From NCBI RefSeq assembly GCF_004797125.1, contig NZ_CP038810.1, positions 868,001-932,000 of the forward strand: DNA of 64,000 nucleotides, read 5' to 3'. Shown in pieces: positions 27,560 to 33,308 of the stretch. Both the position numbers and the translations under genes were made by a program. Origin of the DNA: Flavobacterium sangjuense. GTDB taxonomy: Bacteria; Bacteroidota; Bacteroidia; Flavobacteriales; Flavobacteriaceae. The notes under the pieces are model-generated. The model was not told where the DNA came from, made no database searches, and saw nothing but the letters and a program-made list of their open reading frames with translations. Positions within the stretch are counted from its first letter, which is position 1. The number at the start of each line of letters is the position of its first letter.

Positions 27560-27647
27560 ATTATGAATTATGAGTTATAAATTATGAGTTCAATCTCTAA
27601 CTTATAACTCATAACTCAAAACTCATAACTCAAAACTCATAACTAAT
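27560..27647 (+). repeat. 7-bp tandem array with inverted arms between atpD and atpC
   Basis: Left arm: four units of the form (A/G)TTATGA or GTTATAA (27560-27587, plus GTT). After an 8-base spacer, the right arm has seven units AACTTAT, AACTCAT, AACTCAA, AACTCAT, AACTCAA, AACTCAT, AACTAAT (27599-27647). The arms are near reverse complements, so the atpDC transcript can form a long hairpin here. The array ends three bases before the atpC ATG. The same unit occurs at 28580 and 32723. Confidence 0.85.
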
Positions 27648-27985: not shown

Positions 27986-28010
27986 TTGAAGCTTTTCCGG
28001 CTGTTCGCTA

Positions 28011-28043
28011 TATCTTTTTCTTCCAAAAAAGAAAAAGGATACC
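28011..28043. repeat. imperfect palindrome between atpC and bioF
   Basis: TATCTTTTTCTT and AAGAAAAAGGATA face each other around a CCAAAA loop, with one unpaired G. It is flanked by GC-rich segments (CCGGCTGTTCGC before, CCGCTGCCATCCGG after) that stand out in this AT-rich DNA. It could be a second terminator or a dispersed intergenic element; it has no coding potential. Confidence 0.45.
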
Positions 28044-28064
28044 GCTGCCATCCGGGCTATTTAC

Positions 28065-28113: not shown

Positions 28114-29268
28114 ATGAAGCATTTCCCAAAATCACTCCAACAAAAAATCGAACAACGTAAAGCCAATAACGCCTTGCGTCAATTGCCTGTTGCTAATGAT
28201 TTAATCGATTTTGCGTCCAATGATTATATCGGCTTTGCCAAAAACGAAATCCTCTTTCACGACACACATCAGTTTCTTTTAGATAAAAATATAAAAGTAA
28301 ACGGCGCAACCGGTTCGCGTTTGCTTTCGGGAAATCATTCTTTATATAATGAAGCTGAAGACTATATTGCTCAATTTCATAAAACTGAAGCCGCACTGAT
28401 TTTCAATTCGGGTTATGATGCCAATGTTGGTTTTTTCAGTTCCGTGCCACAACGAAATGATATTATTTTATACGACGAATTGTGTCATGCTTCCATTCGT
28501 GATGGCATCCAAATGAGCAATGCTAAAAGTTATAAGTTTTCACATAATGACTTGGAAGATTTGGAACGCTTATTACAAAAACTCATAACTTATAACTCTG
28601 AACTCATAACTGTTTACATCGTCACCGAAAGCGTTTTTTCTATGGATGGCGATTGCCCAAATATGGAAGAACTTACAAATCTTTCTGAAAAACATGGTGC
28701 TTATTTAGTCGTAGACGAAGCGCATGCACTCGGAGTTTTTGGCGAATGCGGACAAGGATTGGTTCAAAGTTTAGGATTGCAGGACAAAGTTTTTGCCCGA
28801 ATCATGACTTTCGGAAAAGGAATGGGTTGCCATGGTGCAGCCATTTTAGGAAGTCAGGAATTGAAAAGTTATTTGGTCAACTTTGCCCGAAGTTTTGTAT
28901 ACACCACAGGCCTTTCTCCTCATTCAGTTGCTACTATTTTGCAATCGTACAAACATTTGACAAAAGGGAAAGAAGCTCTTGAACAATTAAAGGCCAACAT
29001 CATTTTCTTTAATCAGGAGAAAATGCGTTTAGGTATGAAACCGATGTTTGTCTATAGCAAATCGGCAATTCAATGTGCTATCATTCCGGGAAATGAAAAT
29101 GTAAAAAAGATTGCAAACCAACTCCAGCAAAAAGGTTTTGATGTTCGTCCAATAGTATCTCCAACAGTTCCCGAAGGTCAGGAACGTTTGCGTTTTTGTC
29201 TGCACTCTTATAATTCGGAAAGTGAAATCTCCAATGTGTTGGAATTGTTAGCTACCTTTGTTTTTTAA
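28114..29268 (+). CDS. bioF: 8-amino-7-oxononanoate synthase
   Basis: 384 residues of the PLP-dependent alpha-oxoamine synthase family. Landmarks: DLIDFASNDYIGFA, GATGSRLLSGNHSLY, EAALIFNSGYDANVG, SVFSMDGDCPNM, VDEAHALGVFG and the PLP lysine K235 in MTFGKGMG. It condenses a pimeloyl thioester with alanine, the first ring-building step of biotin. Residues L157-T166 are encoded by a 7-bp repeat array read in frame (see the repeat at 28580), placed in a loop before the VTESVFSMDGD strand. The start of the biotin run; the DUF2007 gene follows three bases after the stop. Confidence 0.95.
   Translation: MKHFPKSLQQKIEQRKANNALRQLPVANDLIDFASNDYIGFAKNEILFHDTHQFLLDKNIKVNGATGSRLLSGNHSLYNEAEDYIAQFHKTEAALIFNSGYDANVGFFSSVPQRNDIILYDELCHASIRDGIQMSNAKSYKFSHNDLEDLERLLQKLITYNSELITVYIVTESVFSMDGDCPNMEELTNLSEKHGAYLVVDEAHALGVFGECGQGLVQSLGLQDKVFARIMTFGKGMGCHGAAILGSQELKSYLVNFARSFVYTTGLSPHSVATILQSYKHLTKGKEALEQLKANIIFFNQEKMRLGMKPMFVYSKSAIQCAIIPGNENVKKIANQLQQKGFDVRPIVSPTVPEGQERLRFCLHSYNSESEISNVLELLATFVF
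28580..28614 (+). repeat. 7-bp tandem array inside bioF
   Basis: Five units: AACTCAT, AACTTAT, AACTCTG, AACTCAT, AACTGTT. They match the units of the intergenic arrays at 27599-27647 and 32811-32840. Only one orientation is present, unlike the paired arms elsewhere. The stretch is read as about ten residues (LITYNSELIT) and keeps the frame. Confidence 0.8.
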
Positions 29269-29536: not shown

Positions 29537-30154
29537 ATGAAGCTATTCATCACAGGAATCGGTACCGATGTTGGTAAAACTATTGCTTCCGCTATCGTCG
29601 TCGAAGCTTTAGAAGCCGATTATTGGAAACCCATTCAGGCCGGAGATTTAGACAATTCAGACAGTCATAAAGTCAAGTCTTTGATTTCGAATGACAAGTC
29701 TCAATTTCACGAAAATAGCTATAAACTCAACACGCCGGCAAGTCCACATTTGGCTGCACAGCTTGACGGAATCACAATCGATTTAAAAAAAATAACAGAG
29801 CCAAAAACCGATAATCATTTGGTTATTGAAGGCGCAGGTGGAATTCTCGTTCCGCTAAACGACAACGATTGTGTAGTAGATTTAATCAAAAATGACTGTA
29901 AAGTTATAGTGGTTTCACGTCATTATTTGGGAAGTATCAATCATACATTGCTCACGATTGAAGCTTTAAAAAACAGAAAAATTAGCGTTGCAGGAATCAT
30001 CTTTTCTGGTGATGAAAACAAAGCCACAGAAGAAATTATCCTAAAGAAAACCGGCATAAAATTCATTGGCAGAATTGACAACGAACCTTATTTTGACCAA
30101 AATGTAATTGGGTATTACGCTGATAAATTCCGCGAGAATCTTTTAAATTTATAA
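29537..30154 (+). CDS. bioD: dethiobiotin synthetase
   Basis: 205 residues, the usual length. The P-loop GIGTDVGKT (residues 7-15, K14/T15) starts the protein; KPIQAGD and VIEGAGGILVPL are the other hallmarks of BioD. It uses ATP and CO2 to close the ureido ring of biotin from 7,8-diaminononanoate. It is located between the DUF2007 gene and bioA. The 115 bases to bioA are taken up by an inverted pair of 7-bp arrays with a promoter-like element between them. Confidence 0.95.
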   Translation: MKLFITGIGTDVGKTIASAIVVEALEADYWKPIQAGDLDNSDSHKVKSLISNDKSQFHENSYKLNTPASPHLAAQLDGITIDLKKITEPKTDNHLVIEGAGGILVPLNDNDCVVDLIKNDCKVIVVSRHYLGSINHTLLTIEALKNRKISVAGIIFSGDENKATEEIILKKTGIKFIGRIDNEPYFDQNVIGYYADKFRENLLNL

Positions 30155-30264
30155 GAAACAAGAGCAAAGAAGCAAGAAGAAAGAAAAGTTCTTAATGTAT
30201 CTTTGCAATTATAATTTCGAAAGAGCTTCAGTCTTTTCTCTTGCTTCTTTCTTCTATTTTCTTT
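30154..30264 (+). repeat. purine/pyrimidine 7-bp arrays in inverted orientation between bioD and bioA
   Basis: Left arm 30154-30188: AGAAACA, AGAGCAA, AGAAGCA, AGAAGAA, AGAAAAG. Right arm 30234-30264: TTTTCTC, TTGCTTC, TTTCTTC, TATTTTC, TTT. The arms are near complements, with a 45-base centre holding a TAnnTTTG element. The unit differs from the AACTCAT family, but the design (7-bp period, inverted arms, filling the intergenic gap) is the same. The left arm begins on the last base of the bioD stop. Confidence 0.75.
30198..30205 (+). promoter_or_regulatory. -7 promoter element for bioA between repeat arms
   Basis: TATCTTTG fits TAnnTTTG exactly; it is the same octamer as in the atpD and 49972 promoters. 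It lies 64 bases before the bioA ATG. No TTG is seen at -33, where the left repeat arm is. The element could allow bioA and the ketosynthase to be transcribed apart from bioFD. Confidence 0.45.
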
Positions 30265-31574: not shown

Positions 31575-32729
31575 TTGAAAAGACCTATTGCCATAACTTC
31601 CATTGCTTCCTTTTCTCCTTTAGGAAAAATGACTGCTGATGTTTGGAAGGAATACCTGAACCCAAAATCATTGATTGTTGAGGCGCCAATAGGCAATACT
31701 ACTGCTCTGGCTGCTCCATTATCTGAAACTTTAGCTAAAGAGGTTCAGGCATTGCGAAACTCGGATGTGAAGTATAAGTCGCTTGACAATTCAGTGCTTT
31801 ATGCTATACTCGCATCAAGAGAAGCGGTAAAAAAAGCAGGTTGGAAGGATTCAAAATTTGGCGTTAACATTGGTTCTTCGCGTGGTGCTACCCAGCTTTT
31901 TGAAAAGCATCATCAGGAGTTTTTAGAAACCGGAAAGACACCAACTCTGGCATCGCCAAGTACAACTTTAGGAAACATTTCCACTTGGGTGGCACACGAT
32001 TTAAAATCAAATGGTCCTGAATTGTCACATTCGATAACCTGCTCCACAGCACTTCATGCTTTGTTAAACGGTATCGCCTGGCTGCAGGCCGGCATGGCAG
32101 ACAGCTTTTTGGTAGGCGGAAGTGAAGCGCCTTTAACGCCGTTTACGATTGCTCAAATGCAGGCATTAAAGATTTATGCTAAGACGAATGATGAATTCCC
32201 ATGTAAAGCTTTAGATTTGGATAAAATCAAAAATTCAATGGTGTTGGGCGAAGGCGCAGCAATGGCGTGTTTGGAAATTGGCGTGCACAATAATGCCCTG
32301 GGTTACGTTACCGGATTTGGTTATGCCACCGACGATTTACAACACAGCATATCAATTACAGATGAAGCGGAATGCTTTCAGAAATCGATGAAAATGGCGT
32401 TGCAAAATGTATCCTTAGACGAGGTTGATGTTGTAGTGATGCACGCGCCGGGAACTTTAAAAGGCGACAAATCAGAATACAAAGCGATACAAAAAGTCTT
32501 CGGGAAAACACTTCCGATGCTGACGACCAACAAATGGAAAGTTGGCCACACTTTTGGCGCTTCGGGAATGCTGAATATTGAATTGGCGCTTTTGATGATG
32601 CAACACCAAGAGTTTATTGGCGTTCCATTTGTTACGGAACAAAATCCGCGTAAAGCGATTCGAAACGTATTGATAAATTCGGTTGGATTTGGGGGTAATG
32701 CGGTGAGTATTTTGTTAAGTAAGTTATGA
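31575..32729 (+). CDS. beta-ketoacyl synthase (KAS I/II-like) in the biotin cluster
   Basis: 384 residues, slightly shorter than FabF. The start is a TTG at 31575: no ATG or GTG lies between it and the in-frame upstream stop, and the next ATG would remove the first strand (RPIAITSIASFSPLG). The Cys-His-His triad is intact: C156 in SITCSTALHALL, H290 in VVMHAPGTLKGD, and H325 in KVGHTFGASGM. The usual EAHGTGT around the first His is changed to MHAPGT. It follows bioA by 33 bases, so a role in making the pimeloyl chain is a reasonable inference, since no bioC or bioH is in the window. The TGA stop is part of a repeat unit. Confidence 0.82.
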   Translation: MKRPIAITSIASFSPLGKMTADVWKEYLNPKSLIVEAPIGNTTALAAPLSETLAKEVQALRNSDVKYKSLDNSVLYAILASREAVKKAGWKDSKFGVNIGSSRGATQLFEKHHQEFLETGKTPTLASPSTTLGNISTWVAHDLKSNGPELSHSITCSTALHALLNGIAWLQAGMADSFLVGGSEAPLTPFTIAQMQALKIYAKTNDEFPCKALDLDKIKNSMVLGEGAAMACLEIGVHNNALGYVTGFGYATDDLQHSISITDEAECFQKSMKMALQNVSLDEVDVVVMHAPGTLKGDKSEYKAIQKVFGKTLPMLTTNKWKVGHTFGASGMLNIELALLMMQHQEFIGVPFVTEQNPRKAIRNVLINSVGFGGNAVSILLSKL

Positions 32730-32842
32730 GTTATAAGTTATGAATTATAAGTTAAAAAGCTTTGTGAAATCTATATCTTCACTTATAAGTTGTAGTTTTC
32801 GATAAAACCCAACTCATAACTCATAACTTATAATTCATAACT
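32723..32842. repeat. 7-bp arrays in inverted orientation between the ketosynthase gene and recX
   Basis: Left arm 32723-32757: GTTATGA, GTTATAA, GTTATGA, ATTATAA, GTTAAAA. Right arm 32811-32842: AACTCAT, AACTCAT, AACTTAT, AATTCAT, AACT. The 53-base centre contains the palindrome ACTTATAAGT. The first left unit supplies the TGA of the ketosynthase gene, and the right arm runs into the TAG (CTA at 32841-32843) of convergent recX. The unit is the same as at 27560 and 28580. It may act as a two-way terminator. Confidence 0.85.
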
Positions 32843-33308
32843 ATTTCTCAAACTCCTTCAATTTCCCATAAACCAAATTACTTTCCCAACCTTTACGCAG
32901 CAAGTAATCACAAAACTTTTTTTTCTTTTTCTGAACATTGGTTTCTCTGATGGTTTCCCAATGCCTTTCGGCTAGTTTGTCAAACGTATCCTGGTATTCT
33001 TCCTCTGTGATTTCGGTTAAAGCGCATTTGATATTGGGTGCAGAAATATGTCGCTGTTTGAGTTCGTTAACAATGCGGTTTTTGCCCCACCCTTTGATAC
33101 GGTGTTTTCCGCGTGCAAAACTTCGGGCGAAGCGTTCTTCGTTTAGAAAATTATGCTGGATTAAATGAACAACAATAGCATCCGTTTCATGGGATTTCAT
33201 TCCCAAATCGCCGGCTTTCTGAACCACTTCCTGATGACAGCGTTCCTGATAAGAACAATAATATTCCAGCTTGAGTTGGGCTTCCTTTAACGTTAGTGCT
33301 TCGTTCAT
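32841..33308 (-). CDS. recX: regulatory protein RecX
   Basis: 155 residues, helical and basic, with the three-helix repeats of RecX: ALTLKEAQLKLEYYCSYQER near the start, AIVVHLIQHNFLNEERFARSFARGKHRIKGWG as the signature core, and the closing CDYLLRKGWESNLVYGKLKEF. RecX binds RecA filaments and modulates recombination. It is convergent with the ketosynthase gene; recA is not next to it. Its stop codon is at the edge of a repeat arm. Confidence 0.92.
   Translation of the reverse strand: MNEALTLKEAQLKLEYYCSYQERCHQEVVQKAGDLGMKSHETDAIVVHLIQHNFLNEERFARSFARGKHRIKGWGKNRIVNELKQRHISAPNIKCALTEITEEEYQDTFDKLAERHWETIRETNVQKKKKKFCDYLLRKGWESNLVYGKLKEFEK

Follow-up and report, generated by a model that had tools for sequence, protein, structure and literature searches.

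Heptamer-repeat arms between a ketosynthase gene and recX in Flavobacterium, with a spacer reversed in a close relative

In a 64,000-nucleotide stretch (the window) of the 3.13-Mb Flavobacterium sangjuense genome, two convergent genes, encoding a beta-ketoacyl synthase and RecX, run into opposed arms built of seven-base units. The locus raises the question of how such an element came to lie at two gene ends, and whether it serves a purpose there. A preliminary description had proposed that it either inserted precisely at the gene ends or arose by tandem growth and is used as a two-way terminator. Our analysis confirmed the heptamer hairpin between the ketosynthase gene and recX, with the coordinates and units of the inverted arms as first described (Table 1). 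The arms do not fill the entire gap, as had been thought, and are separated by a spacer. The ketosynthase stop codon TGA (32727–32729) does sit within the left arm, and the partial unit of the right arm overlaps the recX stop codon (CTA on the + strand, 32841–32843).

Table 1. Features of the ketosynthase–recX locus and of the neighboring heptamer arrays (positions in the window)
Feature	Position	Strand	Remarks
Left arm of inverted pair between atpD and atpC	27563–27590	−	
Right arm of atpD–atpC pair	27599–27647	+	Seven units
Array inside bioF reading frame	28580–28611	+	Third unit AACTCTG
Beta-ketoacyl synthase gene	31575–32729	+	Assignment checked with Pfam
Left arm	32719–32753	−	Five AAYTYAT-family heptamers (GTTATGA/GTTATAA on +)
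Spacer	32754–32810	none	57 bp, non-repeat
Right arm	32811–32838	+	Four heptamers, AACTCAT AACTCAT AACTTAT AATTCAT
Partial unit ending right arm	32839–32842	+	AACT
recX	32841–33308	−	Assignment checked with Pfam

Tandem AACTCAT and its complement contain stop codons in all frames on both strands. A gene entering an array therefore ends there, and precise insertion is unneeded. In Flavobacterium paronense the ketosynthase gene stops one codon earlier, in agreement with a small shift of the stop. The spacer is single-copy in the F. sangjuense genome (next best BLAST match, E = 0.616), and this, with the stops in every frame of the unit, speaks against precise insertion at gene ends. Tandem growth, the other origin first proposed, is supported by site 2226491, where the array of the relative Flavobacterium sp. 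AS60 has precisely one 7-bp unit more.

Folded as RNA, the gap is highly stable on both strands (−39 and −42.3 kcal/mol, z = −8.19 and −8.63), and none of 200 shuffled sequences folded equally well. This stability and the convergent genes would suit a two-way transcription terminator or an RNA-protecting hairpin, as would the hairpin architecture retained despite other heptamers in the atpD–atpC gap of three species and likewise at site 2613613. However, the stem is AT-rich and has no T run, whereas an intrinsic terminator has a G+C-rich stem followed by a T run, and a simple consensus scan called no terminator-like site in the gap. Similar arms lie between atpD and atpC, which are co-directional, and the gap is only 12 bp or less in 11 of 64 relatives with a facing recX, including F. 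paronense (8 bp). The proposed dedicated two-way terminator is thus unsupported, and we consider a terminator or protecting hairpin unlikely. An Rfam search over the arms returned nothing except chance matches below threshold.

The unit belongs, as suggested, to a dispersed family. The two recurrences already noted nearby are real, lying about 5.1 kb (atpD–atpC) and 4.1 kb (bioF) away. Within the window, AAYTYATAAYTYAT at up to one mismatch gave 20 matches against 1.88 expected, a number reached by none of 100 shuffles. Genome-wide, the exact doublet AAYTYATAAYTYAT was found 94 times, compared with 2 for the reversed control, and the narrower AACTCATAACTYAT, which is present in 28 of 60 relatives, 29 times, compared with 0. 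Loose AACT spacing by itself is not enriched, since AACTN{0,9}AACTN{0,9}AACT gave 158 matches vs. 266 in the control. The AAYTYATAAYTYAT matches grouped into 40 sites with 48 arms. Seven sites are inverted pairs, whose spacers range from 8 to 57 bp and are unlike in sequence. The site caller found two units only at 10 of the 40 sites, and some of these ten may be chance matches. The unit takes the forms TAACTCA/TAACTTA, with a lone TAACTGA-like unit at 1233315, and neither AACTCAT nor its complement ATGAGTT has a G run or the G-rich character of a quadruplex. Of the 148 departures from AACTCAT among 183 units called in F. sangjuense, 117 are C-to-T changes at one or the other of its two cytosines (59 and 58), a share biased upwards because the caller treats these changes as free and accepts at most one other mismatch. 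Three near-identical stretches (2242910, 2534037, and 2806657; L095, L099, and L100) each carry the same five-unit array, ending one base from genes of 651–659 codons; the one tested gene among them has a CHU_C type IX secretion signal.

Simple ORF calls placed 37 of the 40 sites in intergenic DNA. The remaining three lie inside reading frames, namely those in bioF and aroA (two arrays) and a match of two units at 1867380, possibly a chance hit. The bioF and aroA arrays carry stop-avoiding units (AACTCTG, AACTCAC); in bioF, an AACTCAT in place of AACTCTG would create an in-frame TAA. The two aroA loops are equal in length in F. sangjuense, AS60, and F. paronense and differ in heptad sequence, the second array reading AACTCATAACTCACAACTCAT, AACTGACAACCGACAACCGAC, and ATTATCAATTATCAACTATCA, respectively. 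Across three ungapped F. sangjuense–AS60 arrays, identity was 50/61 at unit positions 1–4 and 22/49 at positions 5–7. Two further features were seen in this part of the window. A Flavo-1 sRNA (RF01705) lies at 27990–28062 on the − strand, downstream of atpC (71.3 bits vs. a gathering score of 42), and the bioD–bioA gap holds a stretch with 7/14-bp periodicity (AAGAAACAAGAACA, 30153–30186). In relatives, lag-7 arrays occur in 7 of 66 bioD–bioA gaps, as do arrays at lag 6 and at lag 15, and because these lags equal lag 7 the gap was not counted as evidence.

Inverted pairs share one polarity. Where opposite arms lie within 200 bp, the − arm comes first in 7/7 pairs of F. sangjuense, 2/2 of AS60, and 4/4 of F. 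paronense, and in 5/5 pairs of other genomes counted by eye among the matches listed. The polarity is thus the same in all 18 pairs seen (those five among the matches listed), 4 of which are orthologs of F. sangjuense pairs and 14 non-orthologous. AACY pairs in AS60 follow it in 9/9 cases among the matches listed (by eye; two of these pairs were already included above). Not every heptamer obeys the rule: in an AS60 pair of AAATTCC type at 2101458 the C-bearing strand lies on the left. In a genus-wide comparison over 150 genomes, ATGAGTTN{3,33}AACTCAT gave 248 matches and AACTCATN{3,33}ATGAGTT 165; the reversed controls (112 and 135) indicate many chance matches in both sets, the first alone being clearly above its control. 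Two further ideas were rejected. A gap-border rule, by which arms of one strand sit at one border, disagrees with the single + arms, 13 of which are nearest the left border and 7 nearest the right. Telomere-like addition at break ends, as a cause of the polarity, could account for the GTT..AAC pairs, yet the AAATTCC..GGAATTT pair of AS60 at 2101458 disagrees with it.

Strand is also biased in single arrays: of 21 such arrays in co-directional gaps, 19 have AACTCAT on the coding strand (p = 0.0002). Such a bias could mean that an RNA-binding or translation factor recognizes the G-less AACUCAU strand in mRNA, as proposed for TAACTGA repeats, and the arrays at 619436, 1193841, and 1303919 end 1–4 nt before a start codon, as do TAACTGA arrays in the available part of PMC4679880. 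The arms in the recX gap, however, face two gene ends and not starts, arrays abut stops about as often as starts, and orthologous units differ between close relatives. We therefore regard factor-binding sites as quite improbable.

For comparison of the gap among relatives, 80 ketosynthase loci were kept from GTDB genomes. recX faces the ketosynthase gene within 1300 bp in 64 of them; 12 have no recX match, and in the others the genes are further apart. An AAYTYAT doublet is present in the gap of one of the 64 comparable relatives, AS60 (L112), and absent from the other 63. AS60 is taken as the nearest relative on protein identity (ketosynthase 90%, RecX 96%). In AS60 the ketosynthase gene and recX both keep their positions and the element between them is reversed. 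Aligned with its AS60 counterpart in reverse complement, the F. sangjuense gap matches over its full length (local score 163 vs. 96 direct), and the spacer core alone scores 92 reversed vs. 32 direct, the highest of 2000 shuffles being 43. A separate BLAST search found the spacer once in AS60, with 89% identity over query positions 4–65 and, with respect to the ketosynthase gene, in reversed orientation. The two arms in AS60 are unequal, the one next to the ketosynthase gene being short, with a single unit and GTT. An assembly artefact behind the reversal is unlikely because sequencing reads exceed the arm length of about 30 bp. Neither of the two outcomes that would have spoken against the preliminary description, a conserved array of invariant unit number in relatives and a lack of enrichment of the unit elsewhere in the genome, was obtained. 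In another relative (L104) the 338-bp ketosynthase–recX gap holds a different repeat (CACTTCGG-like) and two near-copies of a longer unit.

A spacer reversed between fixed flanks, here between species only, and flanked by inverted repeats of about 30 bp resembles an inverton, a switch inverted by a site-specific recombinase. Identical arms, however, occur at sites with differing spacers, and the arms, made of tandem heptamers, vary in length. No promoter-like site was found in the gap or its region by a sigma-70 type scan, whose consensus does not cover Bacteroidetes promoters. An inverton is accordingly very unlikely. Insertion of a small mobile element (MITE or REP-like) at the end of the gene, oppositely oriented in the two species, would explain arms that look like terminal inverted repeats and a family that is dispersed, but the spacer is single-copy and those of the seven F. 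sangjuense pairs differ in length and sequence. A spacer search in 12 genomes gave good matches confined to F. sangjuense and AS60; the mobile element was rejected as very unlikely.

Periodicity in the 80 ketosynthase loci points to growth in units of seven. Segments with at least 12/14 matches numbered 43 at lag 7, whereas lags 8 and 5 gave 6 and 2. Lags divisible by 3 were also raised (e.g., 27 at lag 6, 53 at lag 21), as expected of coding DNA. In one relative (L107, 3001–4528), the ketosynthase match spans 1528 bp vs. the usual ~1150, which suggests an insertion inside the gene.

AAYTYAT arrays were also found in AS60 at, among others, the counterparts of 1128240 (identical), 2226491, 1303919, and 318320. 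The hairpins at 1128240 and 2226491 retain AAYTYAT in AS60 and neither is inverted. These conserved arrays are a biased set, because several AS60 loci were chosen for holding AAYTYAT. We therefore used 15 F. sangjuense sites placed in AS60 by flanking DNA or synteny alone, which avoids that bias. Period 7 (at least 11/14 matches at lag 7) was present in 9 of the 15 orthologous AS60 segments, compared with 7 of the 69 AS60 gaps that served as background (Fisher p = 9e-5), and at the stricter threshold of 12/14 in 6/15 vs. 3/69 (p = 8e-4). In the same background, lag 8 reached 11/14 in 9 of 69 gaps vs. 7 of 69 for lag 7. Period-8 arrays exist beside the heptads, the AS60 ortholog of 425412 (L301) having period 8 and not 7. 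No AS60 location was found for 155374, 495062, and 2146923, and the two-unit sites 3044264 and 3046210 had no clear AS60 counterpart.

Among these 15 sites, the recX gap alone keeps an AAYTYAT doublet (2432431 has similar units at 10/14), and most of the nine period-7 segments carry another heptamer. The exchange is clear at atpD–atpC, bioF, 442691, 2613613, and 2466315. Between atpD and atpC, AACTCAT in F. sangjuense corresponds to AACCATC and GTTGTCG arms in AS60 and by arms of AATTATC type in F. paronense. The bioF counterpart is AACCGAC in AS60, and F. paronense has no array there. AS60 carries a long AACCGAC/GTTGATA hairpin at 442691, a hairpin of ACTTCGT type at 2613613, and AATTCGT at 2466315. 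AATTCGT is also found at 1993739, where it is near the F. sangjuense unit and the difference may be drift. Sites 2101458 and 2497090 are weak cases, where lag 6 likewise gives 11/14 and 12/14 matches. F. paronense shares AACTCAT with F. sangjuense at 442691 and 2613613, so the heptamer probably changed on the AS60 side. AACYGAC units occurred in 33 of the 100 AS60 matches listed vs. 0 of the 50 F. sangjuense matches listed (counted by eye), indicating that AS60 has a second dispersed family.

Taken together, we think it probable, with moderate confidence, that slippage in 7-base steps combined with template switching between the arms produced these elements, no dedicated function being required at the recX gap. 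Heptamer arrays would lengthen and shorten by polymerase slippage at gene borders, where harm is small. A nascent strand switching template between two arms would keep them alike, and an intermolecular switch between the arms would reverse the spacer; the ketosynthase and recX stops would fall in the arms simply through the stops carried by both strands of the unit. The one-unit difference at 2226491 and the lag-7 excess in the ketosynthase loci support slippage, while the intergenic position of most sites, the stop-avoiding units in bioF and aroA, and the units that differ between species support tolerance over function. Template switching between short inverted repeats is described, in yeast with reference to bacteria, as homogenizing arms and inverting spacers in the available part of PMC8604942. 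Against slippage with template switching stand the single spacer inversion seen, the two uninverted hairpins (1128240 and 2226491), the short left arm in AS60, and the difference between the yeast spacers of 2–5 bp in that part of the paper and the 57 bp of the recX gap. Independent slippage also leaves one heptamer at 40 sites, the pair polarity, and the strand bias without explanation.

A tentative addition, which we hold possible though doubtful, is concerted evolution, in which arrays copy or correct one another through their shared AAC(Y) part by template switching or gene conversion. A new heptamer would then take over many sites, hairpin arms together, with position, 7-base register, and sometimes exact length kept. 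If so, heptamer spread would be a mutational force across the genome, with the aroA loops rewritten at unchanged length.

Under slippage with template switching, the heptamer repeats resemble rapidly evolving side products of DNA copying and not a dedicated switch or terminator. If arrays swap their heptamer with place, register, and hairpin architecture kept, part of the intergenic DNA and even loops in enzymes such as AroA and BioF would be rewritten by copying errors as opposed to ordinary substitution. With closely related species pairs, slippage, template switching, and ectopic copying can be tested directly in bacteria. The case also cautions that conserved intergenic hairpins need not be terminators or regulatory sites. 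In open-licence literature we found no report of AACTCAT arrays in Flavobacterium, nor of heptamer arms with an inverted spacer or of orthologous sites that have exchanged their heptamer.

Heptanucleotide repeats of cyanobacteria are named STRR. The closest known systems are the Xanthomonas GGGAATC and Nostoc GGGGA(C/T)T repeats, which the available part of PMC4692102 describes as dispersed 7-bp tandem arrays of no known function, mostly intergenic and in the majority of four units, with about 70 inverted pairs in convergent orientation; many pairs lie between the same genes in two species, varying in length and sequence. AACTCAT resembles them in its 7-bp tandem unit, its many mostly intergenic sites, and its inverted pairs of one polarity. 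It differs in being AT-rich, with no G-quadruplex potential, and in its strong coding-strand bias, compared with 30% vs. 35% in the Xanthomonas/Nostoc repeats, for which that part of the paper holds neither spacer inversion nor exchange of orthologous heptamers. The same source places several heptanucleotide families in one genome in Calothrix cyanobacteria, with other units and in another phylum. TAACTGA arrays occur in Beggiatoaceae, cyanobacteria, and five Bacteroidetes, with other heptamers alongside (MacGregor 2015, PMC4679880, available part). Like AACTCAT, they have the heptamer shape AACTNNN, are intergenic, and mostly take one orientation toward a downstream start codon. Inverted pairs number one among 170 sets for TAACTGA, as against 7 of 40 sites here. 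The F. sangjuense unit, moreover, is TAACTCA/TAACTTA, and TAACTCA enters the available text of that paper only as a control heptamer, with no direct repeats in the genome concerned. The template switching of PMC8604942 predicts the homogenized arms and inverted spacer of the AACTCAT hairpin, but the accessible part concerns yeast coding genes, with no tandem heptamer arms. The kind of repeat is thus already known from Xanthomonas GGGAATC and from TAACTGA; what is new is the spacer inversion and the exchange of heptamers in place.
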